A DNA stretch of 39,340 nt, taken from Lachnospiraceae bacterium. GTDB lineage: Bacteria; Bacillota; Clostridia; Lachnospirales; Lachnospiraceae. The notes beneath the pieces were generated by a model. It was not told the origin of the DNA, did not search any database, and saw only the letters and a list, made by a program, of their open reading frames with translations. The stretch is from the NCBI GenBank assembly GCA_017552985.1, contig JAFZNO010000022.1, positions 1 through 39,340 of the forward strand, written 5' to 3'. This document shows, piece after piece, positions 2,745-13,911 of this stretch (positions are counted from its first letter, which is position 1; each line of letters starts with the position of its first letter). Both the position numbers and the translations under genes were made by a program.

Positions 2745-4094
2745 ATGACAAAGTGGATCATTGTTGTTGATGATGACATTTCAAATTTGAAGATCGCAGG
2801 TCACATCTTGAGCAAGAATAACATTCGCGTTACGGCGCTCAAGTCCGGCAAGGCTTTTCTGGAATACGTGGAAGAAAAAGGCATGCCGAATCTGATTCTT
2901 CTGGACGTCAAGATGCCTGAGATGGACGGCTTTGAGACGCTCATGAGATTGCGTGAGCTCGAGGAGAGTAAGGGGCTTATGAAAACTCCCGTGGTTTTTC
3001 TCACGGCGGATGAGGACGTTGACACGGAGACCAGGGGCTTTGAGGTTGGCGTGGCGGATTTTATCCGTAAGCCTTTTAATCCCGAGGTTCTTCTAAGGCG
3101 CATCGACAACGTCATGTCAAGCAATCAGGAGATGCGGGATCTCAGGAGCGAGGCCTCCATGGACAAGCTGACGGGGCTTTTGAACAAGGCTGCCACGAGG
3201 ACGGAATTGTCCAGGATTTGTTCGAACGCCGCGGGTTGTCTTATGATGATCGATCTCGATTCCTTTAAGCTCGTAAATGACATCTACGGCCACGAGATGG
3301 GTGACAAAGTACTTATCACGTTTTCCGACCTGATCCGCAAAAGCGTTCCGGAAGGAAGCCAGTGCGGGCGCATCGGCGGTGATGAGTTTGTTGCCTTTGC
3401 GACGGGCGTGACGACGGAGGAGCGGGTAAAAGAAATCGCGGTCAAGCTAAATGATGATCTGGTTGCAGCGGCGAAGCGGCTGATGGGTGAGGACATGGTG
3501 ATCCCCCTTGGAACCTCCGTGGGCGCGATCTTTGTTCCCAGATACGGCAATGATTACGCATCCCTCTTAAAGCTGGCCGACAAGGCTCTTTACAACGTCA
3601 AGAAGTATGGTAAGCACGGCTATGAGCTCTACGATGAAGACGCGTTTGATGAGGGTGATAACGTGGAACTGGACATCAAGGCGATCTCAGAGATCCTGGG
3701 GGAGCGTTCCATCCCGGACGTGGCACTCCAGCTGGACAGGGAAGCTTTCGCGTACGTTTACCGTTACGTGATCAGATATGCCATCAGACACAACATCCAA
3801 GTCTGCAAGGTTCTGTTCACCCTGAATCCTGCGGACGGCGAACCGGATGCCGCTTACGCCAATCTTGTTGATGAATTCGGGACCCATATCAGAAAGTCCC
3901 TTCGCAAGTCGGACATTTTCATGAGAAACAACAAGAAGCAATACTTTGTTTTTCTCTCTGACGTCAGGGAGGATTCTTACAGGAAAGTGGCTGAGCACAT
4001 TGTTGCCAGCTGGGAAGAAAAACATAACGGGGAGCTCCGGATCACGTATTCAACCGAGTTCGTCAAGGCCAAAAACGAAGGTACAAGATTATGA
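2745..4094 (+). CDS. Response regulator with GGDEF diguanylate cyclase domain
   Basis: The 449-residue protein starts with a receiver domain (VVDDD near the N-terminus, phosphoacceptor D54 in LLDVKMPEMDG, KPF near residue 110). A GGDEF domain follows with the intact motif GGDEF at residues 211-215, so cyclic di-GMP synthesis from two GTP is expected. The usual RxxD inhibitory site upstream of GGDEF is absent (PEGS in its place). The C-terminal ~140 residues look like a second, degenerate GGDEF fold (LDREAF..., RKSDIFMRNNKKQYFVFL) without catalytic residues. The start has GAGGGG at 2731-2736. It overlaps the downstream kinase gene by 4 bp (ATGA), and is probably the output of the kinases encoded next to it. 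Confidence 0.9.
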   Translation: MTKWIIVVDDDISNLKIAGHILSKNNIRVTALKSGKAFLEYVEEKGMPNLILLDVKMPEMDGFETLMRLRELEESKGLMKTPVVFLTADEDVDTETRGFEVGVADFIRKPFNPEVLLRRIDNVMSSNQEMRDLRSEASMDKLTGLLNKAATRTELSRICSNAAGCLMMIDLDSFKLVNDIYGHEMGDKVLITFSDLIRKSVPEGSQCGRIGGDEFVAFATGVTTEERVKEIAVKLNDDLVAAAKRLMGEDMVIPLGTSVGAIFVPRYGNDYASLLKLADKALYNVKKYGKHGYELYDEDAFDEGDNVELDIKAISEILGERSIPDVALQLDREAFAYVYRYVIRYAIRHNIQVCKVLFTLNPADGEPDAAYANLVDEFGTHIRKSLRKSDIFMRNNKKQYFVFLSDVREDSYRKVAEHIVASWEEKHNGELRITYSTEFVKAKNEGTRL

Positions 4095-6634
4095 TAAAGA
4101 ATGACGCGAATGATATCTTTAAGTCTTCACATTTGACAGTCCTGATCAGCTATGCGATCTTTTCGGCCGTTCTCATAGGCGAATCCCTGATCATGGGCTG
4201 GGAATTCTGGATGATTCTTTTGATCGCGGTGAGCAACGTCATCTGCTGGATCCTTCACATCCAGCATGACGTGCCTGATAACGTAAGGATTTGGATTTAT
4301 TCCATTCTCATGTCATGCACTTATTTCTTTTATGGCATTCATCTGACCAGCACGTTCGATCTCGCACTGGTCATGGCTGCCATCATTCTCATTTTCACGA
4401 CAACGGGCAAGAAAGGCCTGATCACCCTCTGCCAGTTCACCTACTTGGGGACAATGACGTACGAAGTTGTCCAGCTGGTGATGGCGCATGAGACTTTCGA
4501 TGCCCTGATGATCACAAGATTGATCTTGCATTTCTTCATGGTATTATTCATCAGCCAGTTCTCAAAAACCTTTATTGACAGATGGAATCAGGTATTGCTC
4601 CGCTCCGGTGACGAGGTTGCCCAGCTCACGGAAGCCACGGAGAGACTAAATGATTTCCTAGCCAACGTGTCCCACGAGATCCGAACGCCCGTGAATGCCA
4701 TTATCGGACTCACCGGCATCTGCATTGAAAAATCCGTGGATAAAGAGATCACGGACGAGATGATCAACGTGAGAAACGCAGGCCACAAGGTTGCGGAGCA
4801 GATCAGCGACATTTTGGATTATTCCGAGATCGATCGGAACAAGGCCGTTCCAAACAACGAAGACTACATGCTTTCTTCCGTGCTGCAGGATCTCGTAAAC
4901 GACGTGAAGCAATATAAGTCTAAGAACATTGAGCTGATCATCGACGTGGATCCTTCCATTCCCGCAGTGATGAATTCCGACGTTTCCAAGCTCAAGAAGA
5001 TCCTTAAGGCCTTGATCTCCAACGGCCTGAAATACACGCAGAAGGGCGGCGTGTACGTAAGGATCACCTCCGAGGCGCAGGAATACGGCGTGAACCTTTG
5101 CATTGAGATCACGGATACCGGCATAGGCATGTCGGAATATGAGCTTGAGAAAGTCTATGACAATTTCTATCAGGCGGACTCCGGAAGGGCAAGAATGGGC
5201 GGCGGGCTTGGCCTTGGCCTGGCGATCACCTCCGGATTCGTGTCCCTTCTCGGCGGTTTCATGACCATCGAGAGCAAGCCGGACGTTGGCACGACGGTTC
5301 ACGTAAGCCTTCCCCAGAAGGTGGTTGACCCCACCAGCTGCATGTCCGTTGCAAATCCTGACCAGCTTTGCCTCGGCGCGTATCTCCACTTCGAAAAGTA
5401 TGCCACCCCTGCCGTCAGGGATTATTATAACTCCATGGTTCTTAACATTGTTAAGGGACTTGGGGTCCAGATGCACCGCGTAAACAATGCGGACAACTTA
5501 AAGCTTTTGCATGAGACCCTGCATCTGACGCACCTTTTTGTGGCGGAAGAGGAATACGGCGAGAATGTTGAACTGATCGAAAAACTCGCAAAGGATATGG
5601 TTGTGGCGGTGGTTGCCAACGGCGATTTCGTGCTTCCCAAGAACACGAACGTGAGAGTGCTTGAGAAGCCGTTCTACTGCTTCCCCGTGGTATCCATTTT
5701 GAATTCCAGTCCCAGTGATAAGAAAGAGGCGGAGAAGAAGCTGCGCTGTGACGGCGTCAGGGCCCTTGTCGTGGATGACGAGTCCATGAACCTTGTGGTT
5801 GCAAAGAGCATCTTCAGACGCTATGGCATGAAGATCTGGACGGCCACGTCCGGCCAGGAATCCATTGAAATCTGCCGTGAGAAGGTGTTCGACGTCATCT
5901 TTATGGACCACATGATGGGCGGCATGGACGGCGTGGAAGCCATGAAGAGGATCCGCACGGACGTCTCCGGATTAAACGGATCCATACCGATCGTTGCCCT
6001 CACCGCGAACGCCATGAGTTCCGCCAAGCAAATGTTCCTTGCAGAAGGCTTCGACGGCATTGTCAGCAAGCCCGTTGACATAGAAGAGCTGGAGCGCGTG
6101 CTGAAGCAGGTGCTGCCGAAATCTGCCATATCCTTTGCGAAGGAATACGTAAAGGACGTGCCTGACGAGGCGCCGGAGACCGAAGAACCAGCGGAAGAAC
6201 CCGTCATCGAAAAGGACGTGATCGAGAAGCTGAAGGAGAGCGGGATCGATACCGACGCAGGCATCAAATACTGCATGGGCGACAGGGAATTCTATCAATC
6301 GCTCCTTGCACAGTTTGCTTCCGAAGCGACTGAGAAGACGGCGTCCATGAAACAATTCTTTGGCGATCGCGACTGGCACAATTATGAGATTCTTGTCCAC
6401 GCGTTGAAGAGCACGGCCAAGATGATCGGCATGGGGGATCTGTCCGAGAAGGCCAAGGACCTGGAGATGGCCGCGAAGGAAGGCAAGGAAGACTTCATCC
6501 TTGAACATCACGAGGAAGTGATCAAGCGTTATTCCCGCATTGCTGCCGACGTGAAGGAATTGCTGGATGCGGGCTCTGGGGAGGAAGACGAGATCCTGGA
6601 GTTTGAGCCGCAAGATGAAGATTATTTTCAATGA
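4091..6634 (+). CDS. Membrane hybrid histidine kinase with receiver and HPt domains
   Basis: The 847-residue protein begins with about six membrane segments (residues 14-160) and a short coiled linker. It has a HisKA domain with H195 in SHEIRTP and an HATPase domain with N-box SNGLKYT, DTGIGMS and GGGLGLGL. A receiver-like stretch without acidic pocket follows (about 415-545), then a true receiver with VVDDE and phosphoacceptor D606 in FMDHMMGGMDG. A C-terminal HPt domain carries H770 in HALKSTAKMIG. It should autophosphorylate and relay phosphate D606 to H770. No extracellular sensor domain is present, so the membrane bundle is the likely input. It is translationally coupled to the receiver-GGDEF gene and 16 bp ahead of the next kinase. 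Confidence 0.92.
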   Translation: MIKNDANDIFKSSHLTVLISYAIFSAVLIGESLIMGWEFWMILLIAVSNVICWILHIQHDVPDNVRIWIYSILMSCTYFFYGIHLTSTFDLALVMAAIILIFTTTGKKGLITLCQFTYLGTMTYEVVQLVMAHETFDALMITRLILHFFMVLFISQFSKTFIDRWNQVLLRSGDEVAQLTEATERLNDFLANVSHEIRTPVNAIIGLTGICIEKSVDKEITDEMINVRNAGHKVAEQISDILDYSEIDRNKAVPNNEDYMLSSVLQDLVNDVKQYKSKNIELIIDVDPSIPAVMNSDVSKLKKILKALISNGLKYTQKGGVYVRITSEAQEYGVNLCIEITDTGIGMSEYELEKVYDNFYQADSGRARMGGGLGLGLAITSGFVSLLGGFMTIESKPDVGTTVHVSLPQKVVDPTSCMSVANPDQLCLGAYLHFEKYATPAVRDYYNSMVLNIVKGLGVQMHRVNNADNLKLLHETLHLTHLFVAEEEYGENVELIEKLAKDMVVAVVANGDFVLPKNTNVRVLEKPFYCFPVVSILNSSPSDKKEAEKKLRCDGVRALVVDDESMNLVVAKSIFRRYGMKIWTATSGQESIEICREKVFDVIFMDHMMGGMDGVEAMKRIRTDVSGLNGSIPIVALTANAMSSAKQMFLAEGFDGIVSKPVDIEELERVLKQVLPKSAISFAKEYVKDVPDEAPETEEPAEEPVIEKDVIEKLKESGIDTDAGIKYCMGDREFYQSLLAQFASEATEKTASMKQFFGDRDWHNYEILVHALKSTAKMIGMGDLSEKAKDLEMAAKEGKEDFILEHHEEVIKRYSRIAADVKELLDAGSGEEDEILEFEPQDEDYFQ

Positions 6635-6650
6635 TGGAGGTGCGTAACAA

Positions 6651-9377
6651 GTGAAAGAGTTATTTGATTATCTTTTCAAGCCCTTCAAGCATGATCGCGA
6701 AGCCGTAAAATCAGCCTATCACGGGTCGCTTCGGCCTACGCACGTGATGCTGTCCATCACCTTCATCATGTGTATGCTCTTTTTGCTTCTGTCCTTTATC
6801 AGGCCAGATCTGTTTGGAGAGACAGTTTTCTATCACCGCATTTGCTATGCGATCCTTTTTGCCGCCACCATCCTGTGGTTTATCTATGCAAGGCATGCGG
6901 AATTGGATTATGAGAACAGATATCGCACCGTATTTATCGTGAACGCCGTGATCGGATCCTTCACCTACGCTTGGGCCATTGGGCTGGCATTCGTAAATCT
7001 GCTGGTCAGAAAAGGGATGGACACGACGATCTTTATGACGGTGTCGCTCATCGTGCCCCTTTGCGTGTACTTGAACCCGCTGGAGTACATTCTCATTGCG
7101 TTGCTGTCCAATGCGGCCATGATCTTCCTGCTGTTTTCGGCGCCGTTTTTCGGTTGGGAATATAGCTTTACCAATTCCGTAAACTTCGTCGTTTTCTCCA
7201 TTTTCCAGATCGCCATGGGCGTGACCATGCTCTACACCAAGTACCGGCTTCACAAGCAGATCGTGACGGCGGCAAGGCAACATGACGAAATCGAAATGCT
7301 CAACAAGGCGCAGAACCGTTTCTTCTCCAACATGAGCCACGAGATCCGGACGCCGATCAATACGATCATTGGCCTTAACGAGATGATCCTTCGCGAGAAC
7401 GTAAGCGAAGAGGTCGCAGAGGACGCCGCCAACATCAAGGCTGCCGGCAAGCTCCTCCTCAACCTCATAAACGACATTCTCGACATGTCAAAGATCCAGT
7501 CCGGCAAGATGCAGCTAACTTACGCGCCTTACCGTTCCGGCAACATGCTCTCGGACATCGTCGGCATGCTGTGGATCAGGGCGAAGGAAAAGAAGCTGGA
7601 GTTTCACGTTGACGTGTCACCCGACGTTCCCGCAGAGCTTGTGGGCGACGAGGTCCGGGTGAAGCAGATCCTCATCAACGTGCTCAATAACGCCATCAAG
7701 TACACCAAGGAAGGCAGCGTGTCACTCTCCGTGCAGTGTGAGAGGAAAGAGAACAAGGTCTGCAACGTGATCTATACGGTTTCCGACACGGGCATTGGCA
7801 TCAAGACGGAAGACATCCCTTATCTTTTCTCAGCATTTAAGCGCGTGGACGAGAGCACGACGCGGCACATTGAAGGTACGGGACTGGGCCTTTCCATCGT
7901 GAAGCAGCTGGTGGATCTCATGGGCGGAAAGATCACTGTCAACAGTGTTTACACAAAGGGTTCCACCTTCATCATCGAGATCCCGCAGAGGGTTGAGAGA
8001 GAAGGAAACGTGGGCGAATATGATTTCTCGAAGATCGACGTAAAGACAAGGCCGGAGTACGTTCCAAAGTTTGAAGCGCCGGAAGCCCGGATCCTTGTTG
8101 TTGACGATAATGAAGCGAATCTTATGGTCGTGTCCAAGCTGCTTCGTGACACGAAGGTCAGGATCGATACGGTGAGCAGCGGCGCCGAGGCGCTAAAGCG
8201 GACGCTGAACGTGAAGTACGACGTTATTTTCATGGATCACCTGATGCCCGAGATGGACGGCATTGAATGCCACAGAAGGATCAAGGAACAGACGGGAGGC
8301 AGATGCCGTGAGACCAGCGTCGTGATCCTTACAGCCAACGCGGACGAGGAAAGCAAGGCGCTCTATGCGAAGGAGAATTTTGACGGTTATCTTTCAAAGC
8401 CCGTCAGCGGCGATGAGCTTGAGAACGAGCTCTATCAGTTCCTTCCCAAGGAGCGGGTGCGCATCACGGGACACAGGACGGATCTTGCGGAAGAGACCAT
8501 CTCCTGGATGAATGCAAACAAGCAGCGTAAAAGCGTCGTGATCACCACGGAGAGCGTGGCCGACCTGTCTCCGGAAATCATTGAAAAGTATGGGATTTCC
8601 GTGTTGCCCCACAGGGTTAAGACTGCGGACGGCATCTTCAAGGACGGCAAGGAGATCGAGACCCGTGGCGTGCTGAAATACATGGAAGATCCAAATCATT
8701 TGGTATTGCCCGTGGGCCCCGTGGTAAAGGATGCGGAGGAATTCTTCGCAAAGCTTTTGGCCTATGCGAATAACGTGATCCACGTCTCCATTTCCAGCAA
8801 GCTTGAGAATTCGGGCTATGGTGCGGCCCTGGAGGCTTCCAAATCCTTTGACAACGTGTTTGTGGTTGACTCTGCCCATCTCTCCAGCGGTCAGGGGCTT
8901 CTGGCCATTGAAGCCTGCAGACTGGCGGAGGAAGGAATGAGCGCGGAGGAGATCATCCAAAGGCTCGGGGAGGTTCAAAAGAAGATCCACACAAGCTTTA
9001 TCGTGGACAATCTGGACTTCCTTGCGCGTGCGGGCCAGGTCAGCAACCGCGTTGCCAACATCGTGAAATCCCTTATGGGCAAGCCCGTTCTGCGACTGAA
9101 GAAGGGTAAGATGGGCGTTGGCAGGACGTTCTTCGGCTCCCGCGAAAATGCCTGGAGGGCATACATCAACTCCATTCTCTCTTCCGGCAAGGCCATTGAC
9201 ACGCGGATCCTTTTCGTGACTTACGTGGGACTTAGCAAGCGCGACGTGGATTGGATCCGGGCGCAGATAGAGAAAAAGATGAAGTTCGACGAGATCATAT
9301 TCAAACAGGCGTCCCCCGCGATCGCCGTAAACTGCGGGCCCGGCACGTTTGGATTGCTCTACCGGGAGAAGGATTAA
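6651..9377 (+). CDS. Membrane hybrid histidine kinase fused to C-terminal DegV domain
   Basis: A 908-residue protein with GTG start and GGAGGT at 6636-6641. About six membrane segments (30-205) lead to HisKA (H230 in SHEIRTP), HATPase (NNAIKYT, DTGIGI, GTGLGLSI) and a receiver domain (VVDDN, D529 in FMDHLMPEMDG). From about residue 628 to the end, 280 residues match a complete DegV/FakB fold (VITTESVADLS, KYGISVLPHRV, SISSKLENSGYG, VVDSAHLSSGQG, IVDNLDFLARAG, KPVLRLKKG). DegV proteins bind fatty acids. Here the usual Thr-Ser pair is V688-G689 and the LSGTY motif is replaced by LENSGY, so ligand choice may differ. There is no HPt domain; the neighbouring kinase supplies one. Its output and ligand are unknown. 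Confidence 0.9.
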   Translation: MKELFDYLFKPFKHDREAVKSAYHGSLRPTHVMLSITFIMCMLFLLLSFIRPDLFGETVFYHRICYAILFAATILWFIYARHAELDYENRYRTVFIVNAVIGSFTYAWAIGLAFVNLLVRKGMDTTIFMTVSLIVPLCVYLNPLEYILIALLSNAAMIFLLFSAPFFGWEYSFTNSVNFVVFSIFQIAMGVTMLYTKYRLHKQIVTAARQHDEIEMLNKAQNRFFSNMSHEIRTPINTIIGLNEMILRENVSEEVAEDAANIKAAGKLLLNLINDILDMSKIQSGKMQLTYAPYRSGNMLSDIVGMLWIRAKEKKLEFHVDVSPDVPAELVGDEVRVKQILINVLNNAIKYTKEGSVSLSVQCERKENKVCNVIYTVSDTGIGIKTEDIPYLFSAFKRVDESTTRHIEGTGLGLSIVKQLVDLMGGKITVNSVYTKGSTFIIEIPQRVEREGNVGEYDFSKIDVKTRPEYVPKFEAPEARILVVDDNEANLMVVSKLLRDTKVRIDTVSSGAEALKRTLNVKYDVIFMDHLMPEMDGIECHRRIKEQTGGRCRETSVVILTANADEESKALYAKENFDGYLSKPVSGDELENELYQFLPKERVRITGHRTDLAEETISWMNANKQRKSVVITTESVADLSPEIIEKYGISVLPHRVKTADGIFKDGKEIETRGVLKYMEDPNHLVLPVGPVVKDAEEFFAKLLAYANNVIHVSISSKLENSGYGAALEASKSFDNVFVVDSAHLSSGQGLLAIEACRLAEEGMSAEEIIQRLGEVQKKIHTSFIVDNLDFLARAGQVSNRVANIVKSLMGKPVLRLKKGKMGVGRTFFGSRENAWRAYINSILSSGKAIDTRILFVTYVGLSKRDVDWIRAQIEKKMKFDEIIFKQASPAIAVNCGPGTFGLLYREKD

Positions 9378-9380
9378 AGA

Positions 9381-10964
9381 ATGCAAAGTATGTTTGGTTT
9401 AGGTTTTTCCTACGTAGGCGTGATCTTTCTTGTGATGCTCTTTGTTCCTAACATCATTTGGACCAAGAACAAGCCGGAAGGATATGAGGAGAGCAGCAAG
9501 AAGGAGAACAAATTCCTGTTGGCGCTGGAGCGCATCGGAGAAGTGATGGCCTGCTCCATCGTGGCCATCGCGGATTGCAACGTGAGGATCCATTCCATCT
9601 GGCTTGGATGGCTGATGCTGGCGGCGCTTCTCATGATATTGTACGAGGGCTACTGGATCTGTTATTTCAACAGTCCGAAGATCCTGGCGGACATGTATTC
9701 CTCCTTTGCCGGATTTCCCGTGGCAGGGGCGAGCCTGCCGGTGGTGGCGCTTTTGTTCTTGGGGATTTACGCATGTAGTCTGTGGATCATTGTGACGTCT
9801 CTGATCCTTGGGATTGGCCACGTGGGAATTCATCTGGCCCACAGGAAGGAAGCGCTCGGGAACGCGAAAGGGAATGGCGATAAGAAGCCAAAGAAAAACA
9901 AAGTTTTTCGCATCGTAAAGGGCGTTCTTGTTGCCCTCATGGCAATCCTGATCCTGGAACTCACGGTCGTTATCGGCGTGCGCAACGTAAACCGCATCCG
10001 CTGCTTTATTGACACGAGCAAGGGGATCGATGAGGAAACCTACGTTGAGATCAATGGCCAGAGCCAGTTTATCACGATCCGGGGCCGCGATAAGAATGCG
10101 CTGGTCCTGCTTTATCTTCACGGCGGACCCTGCAGTCCGGACAGCTTTTATGCCTTCAGTTTCACGAATGAATTGATCGATGATTACGTGGTGGTTTGTT
10201 GGGACCAACGCGGCTGCGGGCGGACCTACGTGAATAACGATGACAAGGATAATCAGACCGTAAGCTTTGATCAGGCCTTGATGGATTTGAACGCGCTTGC
10301 GGATTACCTTAGGGAGACGTTTGGGCAGGACAAGATCATCATCCTGGGGCACTCCTATGGCTCCGTTCTCGGCAGCAGGTTTGCCTACGATCATCCGGAA
10401 AAAGTGGCGGCATTTATCGGGATCGGACAGTACGTAAATGCGGCGACGGCATTAAAATACGAGTATGAAGATGCGTTTTCGAAAGCCATGGCGGCAGGAG
10501 ATGACGTGACGGCGCTGAAGAAAGCTTATGAGACCTTTTTGCAGGATAAGACGCTGGAGAATTCAACGGCGGTAAGTGATCTGGCAGCGCCCTATCATCC
10601 GGCGCCCCGTGCAAAAAATCTTATATTGGCGGCCCTCGCTTCACCGACTCTTTCCACCCAGGACATAACGTGGTATGCAAACATGACGAGCTACGAGGCG
10701 TTTCTCAAATATGCGGGCAGCCTGATGGATTACCTGATGGGCGTGGATCTGAGAGCCTCCCAGCCGTCCTACGAGGTTCCCGTATTCTTTGTCTCGGGAG
10801 ACTGTGATTATAACTGTGCATGGGAAGACGTGGCGGATTATGCCAAGATGCTTGGTGCGAAATGCGACCTGATCCAAGGCTGCGGGCATAACGTGCACTA
10901 TGATGATCCTAAAGCATTTGCAGCGATTGTAAAAGAGAATCTGAAGAGTATCGAAAGGAAGTAA
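9381..10964 (+). CDS. Membrane-anchored alpha/beta hydrolase (prolyl aminopeptidase-like)
   Basis: The 527-residue protein has an N-terminal membrane region of about four segments (residues 5-25, 72-95, 110-155), a lysine-rich loop, and one more segment near 175-198. A soluble alpha/beta hydrolase domain follows. The catalytic set is visible: oxyanion HGGPCSPD, WDQRGCGRT as in proline iminopeptidases, nucleophile Ser in GHSYGS, an acid in SGDCDY and a base in GCGHNVH. Active-site topology relative to the membrane is uncertain; a peptide or ester substrate is equally possible. The start lies 3 bp after the DegV-kinase stop with the ribosome site inside that gene, so it belongs to the same operon. 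Confidence 0.85.
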   Translation: MQSMFGLGFSYVGVIFLVMLFVPNIIWTKNKPEGYEESSKKENKFLLALERIGEVMACSIVAIADCNVRIHSIWLGWLMLAALLMILYEGYWICYFNSPKILADMYSSFAGFPVAGASLPVVALLFLGIYACSLWIIVTSLILGIGHVGIHLAHRKEALGNAKGNGDKKPKKNKVFRIVKGVLVALMAILILELTVVIGVRNVNRIRCFIDTSKGIDEETYVEINGQSQFITIRGRDKNALVLLYLHGGPCSPDSFYAFSFTNELIDDYVVVCWDQRGCGRTYVNNDDKDNQTVSFDQALMDLNALADYLRETFGQDKIIILGHSYGSVLGSRFAYDHPEKVAAFIGIGQYVNAATALKYEYEDAFSKAMAAGDDVTALKKAYETFLQDKTLENSTAVSDLAAPYHPAPRAKNLILAALASPTLSTQDITWYANMTSYEAFLKYAGSLMDYLMGVDLRASQPSYEVPVFFVSGDCDYNCAWEDVADYAKMLGAKCDLIQGCGHNVHYDDPKAFAAIVKENLKSIERK

Positions 10965-11161: not shown

Positions 11162-13162
11162 ATGTTAATAAACAAATCTTATCGCATTGTCGCATCGACA
11201 GTTCTTTTTGTTGCAGTTATTTTGTTAATTGTCTTCTCTTATTCTAACTATAACCTTCGGGTCAATCAGATTACCGGGGGATTTCTTGATTTGTCCGGAA
11301 TGGATCTGGAAAGCACCATATATTCCTTGGACGGAAACTGGATTTTCTGGCCAGAGGAATACGTGGATCCGGTCGCGGCAGTTTCGTTGCAAACAACGGA
11401 GCAGGGCGGCGCGGATCATCAGGCTTATCCAGGCATTGCGGACGCGGCGGCTCTTCCGGCGGCGCAGGAAATCGAGGTTCCCGGCTCCCTGTATCAACTT
11501 TCCCCTAATCAAAAAGATAAGATCAAAACAGGCACGTATCAGTTGAAGATCCGGCTGGACGAGCCCGGCACTTATGGCCTCAAAACGTCCTTGGTGTCTG
11601 GCGCGTACAAGCTTTATTGCAACGGCGAGCTGGTCAGTGAGGTTGGCGTTCTCGGCAAAGCGGGAAACGAGGGCGCTGCCGGAAAAGCCGGCGAAGCAGG
11701 AAACGGTGCTGCGGAGAAAGCCGGCGCTGAGGAGGACACGGAAAAGAGTGTCTGGCAGCCGAAGGTGTGCCTCTTGCATACGGACGAGCGGGACCTGACG
11801 ATCACCGTTCACGTGTCCAATTATCACTGCCAGCACGGCGGTCTGATAAAGAGTCTGTACTTTGGCACCACGGAAAACGTGTATTATTTCCAGACCATGC
11901 AGACCATCAAAAGCGCTGCGATCATAGGCATTTTCGTGGGTCTTGGCATCTATCTTCTCCTGCTCACCTGCGCCACGTCGCACCGCAAAACGGGTCTTTG
12001 CCTGAGCACTCTTTGCGTGGGCAGCGCGCTTTTGGAGAGTCTTTTGGATGAAACCATTTTCTTTTACTTTTTTAAGAATCTGCCCTTGATCATTCCCATG
12101 AAGGCGCAGTTCATTGTCTGCACCATATTGATCATTTCCGTCTTTTATTTTTACAAATACATCTACCCGAATCAAAAAGGGAAAACGCTTTATTACGTCG
12201 TGGAGTACGTGAACCTGATCTATCTGGTGCTTTTGATCTGCGCGCCCACCTACGCGACGGCTTCGATGATGGGTGGATTTTGCTTCGTTTTGCTGGTCCT
12301 GAATCTCATACCGCACCTGATCCAGACCATCCATGAGATCCGCCGGCCCAACAGTTACGCGGGGGTGTCGCTCCTAAGCATCATCGTGCTGTTTTTACTG
12401 TCCTGCGCGCAGTTTTATTTCGTGGACACGGGAAAGAGCCTGCACCTTTACGTCAGGGAAAATGCGTTCATTATCGGCATTCTCTTCTTTATCCTGTGCC
12501 AGATCAACATTCTGCTGAAGGACGTGGACCGGGCTTATCAGAACGCGAAGCTGGCGGATTCCATGGAGATCGCGTACCTGCAGGCACAGATCTCGCCCCA
12601 CTTTATGTTCAACACCCTGAACAACGTGTCGTACTTTATGAATCAGGACGTGACGAAGGCGCAAACGCTGCTCCTGCAGTTCTGTGACTTTTTGAAGGTT
12701 AAGCACAAGTTTGATTACCGGAAGCAGGTCTTTTACACGCTGGGAGAGGAGTTCGATTTTTTGAAATCCTACGTGGCGATTGAAAACATCCGGCTTCAGG
12801 ATGCGATCAAGCTGGAAATCCACGTAAAAGAAAAGCTGAAGGCCATTAAGATCATGCCGCTGATCCTGCAACCGCTGGTGGAAAACGCCATTAAGCACGG
12901 GTATGATTCGAAGCCCCTGACCATCGCAATCTCCGTGACGGAAGTGCAGGGGAGCTATCATTTCACGGTGAAGGACAATGGAAAGGGCATGAATGAGATT
13001 CAGCTCCGGAATCTTGGCAGTGCCGGGAGCAAAGGCGTTGGCATCTCAAACATCAATTATCGCTTGGGGAAATACTGCGGCGAGAAGCTGCATTTTGAAA
13101 GTCAATTGGGGGAAGGAACTACCATTTCGTTTTCTTATGCAAAGGAGGGGCAACAACTATGA
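11162..13162 (+). CDS. LytS/YesM-type sensor histidine kinase with 7TM-type membrane domain
   Basis: The 666-residue protein has an N-terminal membrane segment (10-27) and an extracytoplasmic beta-rich domain (about 40-240) resembling the sensor domains paired with 7TMR-DISM regions. A seven-segment membrane domain (about 245-450) and a His_kinase/HATPase module follow. H480 lies in QISPHFMFNTLNN, with LVENAIKHG and DNGKGM for ATP binding. A Gly/Ala/Glu low-complexity tract (GKAGNEG, GKAGEAG, EKAGAEE) interrupts the sensor domain near residues 163-195. The signal sensed is unknown; the fold often binds carbohydrate-like ligands. It overlaps the LytTR regulator gene by 4 bp, which identifies the partner. 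Confidence 0.9.
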   Translation: MLINKSYRIVASTVLFVAVILLIVFSYSNYNLRVNQITGGFLDLSGMDLESTIYSLDGNWIFWPEEYVDPVAAVSLQTTEQGGADHQAYPGIADAAALPAAQEIEVPGSLYQLSPNQKDKIKTGTYQLKIRLDEPGTYGLKTSLVSGAYKLYCNGELVSEVGVLGKAGNEGAAGKAGEAGNGAAEKAGAEEDTEKSVWQPKVCLLHTDERDLTITVHVSNYHCQHGGLIKSLYFGTTENVYYFQTMQTIKSAAIIGIFVGLGIYLLLLTCATSHRKTGLCLSTLCVGSALLESLLDETIFFYFFKNLPLIIPMKAQFIVCTILIISVFYFYKYIYPNQKGKTLYYVVEYVNLIYLVLLICAPTYATASMMGGFCFVLLVLNLIPHLIQTIHEIRRPNSYAGVSLLSIIVLFLLSCAQFYFVDTGKSLHLYVRENAFIIGILFFILCQINILLKDVDRAYQNAKLADSMEIAYLQAQISPHFMFNTLNNVSYFMNQDVTKAQTLLLQFCDFLKVKHKFDYRKQVFYTLGEEFDFLKSYVAIENIRLQDAIKLEIHVKEKLKAIKIMPLILQPLVENAIKHGYDSKPLTIAISVTEVQGSYHFTVKDNGKGMNEIQLRNLGSAGSKGVGISNINYRLGKYCGEKLHFESQLGEGTTISFSYAKEGQQL

Positions 13163-13911
13163 AGGTCGTGATCGTGGACGATGAGAATACTTCCGTCCAA
13201 CATCTAAAAACGCAATTGGAAAATTATCCGGACGTGGAAATCGCTGCGACGTTTACGGATTCCGTGGAGGCGCTTTCTTACTTGATCCGGACGCCCTGTG
13301 ACCTTCTTTTTCTGGACATTGAGATGCCCAACATCAGCGGTCTCTACATAGCGGAGCAGATCACGCTCCTTCATCCCGGCGTGAAGGTCTGCTTTATCAC
13401 GGCCCATCCGGAAGGGGCACTGAAGGCATTTGAACTGAATGCGCTGGACTACATTCCAAAGCCCTTCACAAAGGAGCGTCTGGAGCAATGTTTGAGCCGC
13501 ATGCGGAGGGACGTGGAACGGCGCAGGGAGGCGGAGGAGGAATCCGTGAATTTCGATGCGCTGGGGCAGGGGTTGGATTACGCCTTGAACATTATTTGCG
13601 GCTATCATGATGAGGACGTGGTGCTCATCAACACGCAGGACATTTATTATTTCGAGACCGTGCAGAGCAGCGTGTTCATTCACACGAAGACGCAGGTCTA
13701 TCGCGGCAACAAACCCCTTAGCTTTTACGAGGAAAAGCTAAAGCCGCTCTATTTTTTCAAGACGCACAAATGCTTTCTGGTCAACCTTTCCAAGGTGGAC
13801 CGCTTCAGCCCGCGGATCAACTATACTTATGACTTATTTTTCAAGGACTTGAAGGACCGGATCCCGCTGAGCAGGAATAACGTGAAAGCGCTGAAGAGTT
13901 ACTTACATTGA
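13159..13911 (+). CDS. LytTR-family response regulator
   Basis: A 250-residue regulator with an N-terminal receiver (VDDE, phosphoacceptor D53 in FLDIEMPNISG, KPF near residue 104). The C-terminal LytTR DNA-binding domain (about 145-250) shows INTQDIYYFETVQSSVFIHT and FFKTHKCFLVNLSKVDRF. It should be phosphorylated by the kinase encoded directly upstream and bind direct repeats in target promoters. The 3' end of the gene is repeated twice more just downstream, outside the reading frame. Targets are unknown; the nearby 14050 gene is a candidate by position only. Confidence 0.93.
   Translation: MKVVIVDDENTSVQHLKTQLENYPDVEIAATFTDSVEALSYLIRTPCDLLFLDIEMPNISGLYIAEQITLLHPGVKVCFITAHPEGALKAFELNALDYIPKPFTKERLEQCLSRMRRDVERRREAEEESVNFDALGQGLDYALNIICGYHDEDVVLINTQDIYYFETVQSSVFIHTKTQVYRGNKPLSFYEEKLKPLYFFKTHKCFLVNLSKVDRFSPRINYTYDLFFKDLKDRIPLSRNNVKALKSYLH

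Follow-up and report, generated by a model that had tools for sequence, protein, structure and literature searches.

The FakB proteins of S. aureus (FakB1 and FakB2) are free proteins that serve as substrate carriers for the fatty acid kinase FakA. According to PMC8892158, the fatty acid of FakB1 is held via Thr62, Ser95, Ser171 and His270; catalysis by the fatty acid kinase requires Arg173, and binding to FakA requires Arg205; mutating the carboxylate network makes FakB unstable; and FakB lipid exchange takes place at membranes. FakA, which is not a histidine kinase, ends in a FakB-related domain (FakA_C) without the tunnel-roof segments (PMC9136124). Among histidine kinases (HK), proteins such as BarA join a HisKA-HATPase core to a receiver (REC) and then to a histidine phosphotransfer (Hpt) domain. 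DhaQ, the co-activator of the L. lactis dha operon, has a DhaK-like fold and is a separate protein working with a transcription factor; a literature search on DhaQ gave nothing relevant. Here we describe a gene within 39,340 nt of Lachnospiraceae bacterium DNA (assembly GCA_017552985.1, contig JAFZNO010000022.1, positions 1 to 39,340; this whole stretch is the window) that encodes a membrane histidine kinase in which a receiver is followed by a DegV domain (Table 1). Sensor proteins of this kind belong to gut and rumen bacteria. Unlike FakB, this DegV domain is tethered to a histidine kinase and, in its core family, has Gln for the catalytic Arg and Asn for the carboxylate His. It resembles FakA_C in ending a kinase polypeptide but has the roof segments that FakA_C lacks, and it occupies the Hpt place of the BarA-type kinases, whose HisKA-HATPase-REC core it shares, with the Hpt coming instead from a second kinase whose gene is adjacent. 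The open-access literature, c-di-GMP (cyclic diguanosine monophosphate) terms included, yielded no account of a histidine kinase fused to DegV, nor do passages of PMC12688256, PMC3533761, PMC9912610, PMC8931315, PMC10146087, PMC3146951 and PMC9385722 describe one.

The domain order, the gene set, a single mobile Hpt, the loss of FakB residues, the kept fold and tunnel segments, and purifying selection are documented below by sequence comparison. We lean, by a little, to the reading that two kinases share one relay in which DegV is a tethered, non-catalytic and most likely ligand-binding regulator that is no longer a FakA carrier. Of these parts, comparison among relatives gives good support to the relay and to the loss of the FakB role.

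Residues 629-906 belong to the DegV/EDD domain family at full length and with the fold retained. The Pfam DegV profile (PF02645) was covered from position 2 to 279 of 280 with 159 bits against a cut-off of 27, and NCBIfam TIGR00762 scored 173.6 bits against 99.7. This bears out a reading made from the letters alone (the sequence-only reading), which had claimed a complete DegV domain after the receiver in one reading frame and had asked for a profile search and a frameshift check. For the latter, a one-genome-per-species scan gave at least 595 candidate stretches, 583 of them encoding some relative of the query, many surely matching through kinase domains alone. In the best 80 of the 583, which were analysed, DegV lay on the kinase open reading frame (ORF) in 80/80, ruling out a frameshift or assembly artefact; the L092 ORF starts only at query residue 320, and those of L060 and L074 run off their contigs. 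L028, L036 and L071, three of these 80, carry strain names and no metagenome-assembly label in their titles.

We compared the residues of 107 fused DegV rows (81 core and 26 more distant) with those of 28 stand-alone rows. The stand-alone set was made of closest relatives and own-genome copies and is non-random, and the fused rows are related and non-independent. Five of the seven own-genome stand-alone copies entered these counts and the tree given below (L002 and L007 were removed by a score/length filter), and L108-L111 and L113 were excluded as duplicates of L134 and L136-L139. FakB1 positions were mapped by alignment via FakB2 (4x9x), and the FakB1-FakB2 equivalence was taken from motif order. 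The catalytic Arg and the carboxylate His were both retained in 28/28 stand-alone rows but in 1/107 fused rows (L134), so the earlier proposal that the ligand or its role may have changed is well supported. The most consistent change, absent from the sequence-only reading, is that of the carboxylate His to Asn894, seen in 104 of the 106 fused rows having a residue there and in 80/80 of the core. Gln796 replaces the catalytic Arg in 81/81 core rows, in agreement with the GGR to AGQ change already noticed. The LSGTY to LENSGY change was also found as described, one inserted residue being part of it; Ser721 and Gly722 are each present in 78/81 core rows. The Thr-Ser position had rightly been called altered, but its placement at V688-G689 was one residue off, since FakB2 T61-S62 aligns to P687-V688; at the Thr62 column, 52 of the 81 core rows have Pro and 25 have Thr. 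The carboxylate network is represented by Pro687, Glu719, Ala794 and Asn894, which is not the FakB network. By alignment Ser721 may stand in at the FakB Ser95 place, with Glu719 adjoining the insertion. The register at the Arg205 column is unsure (Phe828 by alignment, Ser830 by phmmer, with Arg831 adjoining); read with that reservation, Arg is found there in 27/28 stand-alone and 0/81 core rows, and the eight commonest letters of the distant rows (23 of 26) do not include Arg.

The fold of the DegV domain matches fatty-acid-bound structures. Its three tunnel-roof segments were all kept (37, 22 and 10 residues, compared with 36, 22 and 10 in FakB2). The median ratio of nonsynonymous to synonymous change (dN/dS) was 0.083, indicating purifying selection; this was obtained from the first 120 of 223 close pairs, which are non-independent, counting those with dS between 0 and 2.5. 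A receptor role is the best explanation because the residues for hand-over to FakA were lost, the tunnel segments were kept and selection continues.

The second line of evidence concerns the Hpt, which changes protein. In the ordinary form, an Hpt match (E 0.05 or better) was obtained in 12/13 of the partner kinases scanned, and in 0/16 of the untailed DegV kinases scanned. Ten DegV kinases (ORFs of 1,115-1,166 aa) bear an extra tail, and the Hpt was found in 10/10 of these; their nine readable partners (676-695 aa) end after REC and have an Hpt in 0/9, the partner of the tenth (L149) not being found on its stretch. The moved Hpt of L146 is 42% identical over 99 aa (E 3e-22) to the Hpt of the window's partner, and the tailed proteins form one clade (SH-like approximate likelihood ratio support 99, quick tree, L161 excluded). 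One Hpt per pair, in either protein, is what a single shared relay predicts and, with L138 excepted, is what these loci have, as would be expected of a two-kinase phosphorelay. Such an exchange is clean evolutionary evidence for two neighbouring hybrid kinases in one relay. At L151:4277-9877 the partner is split over two ORFs (520 and 305 aa) and the downstream DegV kinase has a 108-residue tail.

The conserved phosphorelay gene set with one common Hpt was likewise absent from the sequence-only reading. Neighbours within about 8 kb were clustered in the 80 loci, and clusters were read by eye with no family search. Two signalling genes occurred in 76 and 66 of the 80 loci, and the next cluster in 12. 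The HK-REC-Hpt partner lay upstream in 74 of the 75 loci having more than 2.7 kb upstream; its ORF overlapped that of the DegV kinase by exactly 4 nt in 53/78 (starts being mechanical), which suggests coupled translation, and the window itself has a 16-nt gap and no overlap. A GGDEF-type regulator came next upstream in 63 of the 68 loci having more than 5.2 kb there. Regulator copies were at least 740 aa in 48/66 relatives, and the two scanned (L026 and L156) are REC-GGDEF-REC-HD_5; the window's copy stops after GGDEF, and L024 (468 aa) and L045 (456 aa) have short copies as well. At distant loci the regulator place was taken by REC-HD_5 (L137, L157, L158, L160), REC-GGDEF (L144, L148), REC-GGDEF-REC (L153), or a lone receiver-sized protein (L134, L155, L159, L139, of which L134 was Pfam-scanned). 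HD_5 (HD-GYP-like) domains degrade c-di-GMP, and the conserved signalling gene set probably controls this messenger.

In the mechanism we propose, the two membrane hybrid kinases would use one common phosphorelay: phosphate would pass from His to Asp in the hybrid kinases, then to the module's sole Hpt, on the partner, and then to the receiver of the regulator, which would make and/or break c-di-GMP. The DegV domain would descend from a stand-alone FakB-like protein whose job as FakA substrate carrier is gone. It would be kept near the inner leaflet by the membrane region and by a linker that is probably flexible, and its tunnel would most likely bind a fatty acid or other amphipathic ligand; the ligand would shift the common relay, either in its kinase/phosphatase balance or in its REC-Hpt transfer, and c-di-GMP would be the output. 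Which way phosphate flows, what the ligand is and that its binding alters signalling are inferred here. To our knowledge the SaeRS kinase of S. aureus has no DegV domain. SaeRS signalling is inhibited by fatty acids according to PMC5539427 and is a precedent for lipid control of a two-component system.

The lipid-responsive signalling suggested by the sequence-only reading may be how the module works, given the kept tunnel-roof segments and the match to fatty-acid-bound structures. A more specific version, which we hold tentatively and rate somewhat short of even, is a lipid-gated phosphorelay: a FakB-type carrier, disarmed by the His-to-Asn change (plus Arg-to-Gln in the core), would now be a tethered membrane-lipid sensor that sets c-di-GMP in Clostridia of the gut and rumen from a place inside the relay, which in one clade lies between REC and Hpt. 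If true, fatty acid state would feed directly into c-di-GMP, and the family would show one way in which a substrate carrier can turn into a signal receptor. Gut and rumen are rich in fatty acids, which act there as signals and as stresses, and the role for which carriers of the FakB family are mostly known is to supply membrane synthesis; should the domain bind lipid, it would be a soluble, testable lipid-sensing module linked to c-di-GMP.

Several observations weigh against the shared relay with a ligand-binding DegV regulator. With the counterparts of His270 and Thr62 gone, the domain might hold no fatty acid. Nine of the 26 distant fused rows still have the catalytic Arg (the others have L, Q, K, H, I, Y or F). 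DegV is less conserved (mean pairwise identity 63%) than the kinase (79%) or REC (74%). No lipid gene was recognised as a constant neighbour in the by-eye reading of the 80 loci, the sole lipid-related cluster being a patatin-like gene in 5/80. On the relay side, five of the twelve ordinary Hpt matches fall below the Pfam cut-off (seven are above), the L138 partner, the sole miss of the 13 scanned, has no Hpt by Pfam, the partner is absent from 7.6 kb upstream of the L091 DegV kinase, and the Hpt move counts as one exchange kept since and not as ten.

A different role, which we consider unlikely but the most serious of the competing ones, is that DegV binds no ligand and is a docking or scaffold domain for another protein, be it a free-standing FakB, the partner kinase or a second copy of itself, as in FakA_C. 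FakA_C offers the precedent of a tunnel-less, FakB-related domain that sits on a kinase and binds FakB, as reported in PMC9136124; here the FakB pocket residues are gone, a FakA-like gene and seven further DegV matches are present in the own genome, and the linker ahead of the domain is of low confidence and probably flexible. The three roof segments missing from FakA_C are nevertheless all present, so the domain is not of the FakA_C type, and in the core family new residues have become fixed at the pocket motifs (Gln796, Asn894), for which a pure scaffold would have no need. The place directly after REC is the usual one for an output domain, and DegV is conserved far better than the membrane region (63% against 26%), so lipid traffic might be regulated rather than sensed, with receiver phosphorylation governing fatty acid loading or release by DegV. 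This is improbable in our view: with Gln for the catalytic Arg throughout the core, cargo could not be handed to FakA in the known way, and in the clade with the Hpt after DegV the domain lies between relay elements and is not terminal. That DegV is an inert passenger, decaying since the fusion, would fit the loss of FakB signature residues and the wide divergence of the distant fused rows; it is disfavoured to the point of being scarcely credible by the low median dN/dS, by the core family's own invariant residues and retained fold, and by long ORFs in 45/299 family genomes from about as many genera.

Those family counts come from a fused-DegV profile search of 299 genomes of the window's family, sampled from about as many genera; ORFs of at least 724 aa made up 58/71 matches. 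In the window's class (E 1e-45 or better) there were 10 long ORFs in 9/391 genomes, and in its phylum (E 1e-55 or better) long ORFs in 3/299 genomes, all of the window's own family, the remaining 14 matches being on ORFs of 286-336 aa; the class and phylum samples and thresholds leave room for the fusion elsewhere. A Pfam scan of 26 of the 58 long family ORFs found DegV plus HATPase in 26/26 and HisKA plus REC in 25/26. In a tree of 53 DegV domains, 25 fused rows split from 28 stand-alone rows with branch support 100/100, and because the fused rows lie on one side of this branch, a single origin explains them most simply. The fusion is real and old, apparently arose once and has been kept across many genera. 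At L161:5790-8375, DegV is found on a partner-type kinase without a HisKA or REC match (27% identity to the window's partner over 585 residues; 34% between its DegV end and the window's DegV).

The closest relative with a name to the module at 2745-9377 is L024 (Acetatifactor), and next come Saccharofermentans, Ruminococcaceae and Clostridiales records (76-78%). In a genome of the same genus as the window, G202, two copies are present, both distant (49% and 36%). Possibly the module was horizontally transferred, or the bin is mixed.

Table 1. Features of the DegV kinase and its two conserved neighbours (window positions).
Feature	Position	Strand	Basis
REC-GGDEF response regulator, 449 aa	2745..4094	+	Pfam
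Partner kinase, membrane HK-REC-Hpt, 847 aa	4091..6634	+	Pfam, neighbour clustering
Partner's Hpt, residues 738-817	6302..6541	+	Pfam
HK-REC-DegV hybrid kinase, 908 aa	6651..9377	+	ORF and Pfam
N-terminal membrane region, residues 16-200	6696..7250	+	Hydropathy and model
HisKA, residues 220-285	7308..7505	+	Pfam
Phosphoacceptor His230	7338-7340	+	Motif assignment
HATPase_c, residues 332-446	7644..7988	+	Pfam
Receiver domain (Response_reg), residues 481-593	8091..8429	+	Pfam
Phosphoacceptor Asp529	8235-8237	+	Motif assignment
REC-DegV linker, residues 607-623	8469..8519	+	Predicted local distance difference (pLDDT) <50 in model
DegV domain, residues 629-906	8535..9368	+	Pfam, NCBIfam, fold
Pro687, place of FakB carboxylate Thr (FakB1 Thr62)	8709..8711	+	Alignment
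ENSGY, residues 719-723, place of SGTY motif, one-residue insertion	8805..8819	+	Alignment
Gln796, place of FakB catalytic Arg (FakB1 Arg173, GGR motif)	9036..9038	+	Alignment
Asn894, place of FakB carboxylate His (FakB1 His270)	9330..9332	+	Alignment

The kinase gene starts with GTG, with GGAGG 5' of the start at 6636-6640. His230 is present in 80/80 rows having a residue at that column, Asp529 is invariant (38 rows), and the receiver residues Asp485, Asp486, Thr561 and Lys583 are each present in 81/81 rows; the HisKA His, the HATPase and the acidic pair, Thr and Lys of the receiver mark the protein, by its motifs, as a hybrid histidine kinase. The BarA model was its best NCBIfam match (323 bits, far below the cut-off of 890), and in the best 25 of 147 NCBIfam rows the DegV domain model alone exceeded its cut-off. 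The membrane region is the least conserved part (mean pairwise identity 26%); it has six helices in the predicted model, the last continuing into the HisKA helix. The whole-protein model had a predicted template modelling score (pTM) of 0.49, its domain arrangement was not trusted, and it was used only for the helices and the linker, which is probably flexible.

That DegV normally stands alone, as the sequence-only reading stated, fits the own genome, where 7/8 DegV matches are on short ORFs (294-331 aa). One stand-alone match lies about 2 kb from the sole FakA-like match (G000:C32:158314-162016), and because of this proximity an ordinary Fak system is probably also present. In a promoter scan, promoter-like sites numbered 19 against 6.8 expected by shuffling, and terminator-like sites 8 against 9.3. 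Directly 3' of the DegV kinase lies a gene (9381-10964) for an alpha/beta hydrolase whose N-terminal part is hydrophobic; it is not a conserved neighbour. A separate two-component pair (11162-13911) consists of a His_kinase gene, weakly matching 7TMR-DISM, and then a LytTR response regulator, and at 230-1713 an APH-type phosphotransferase gene overlaps a DUF3916 gene.
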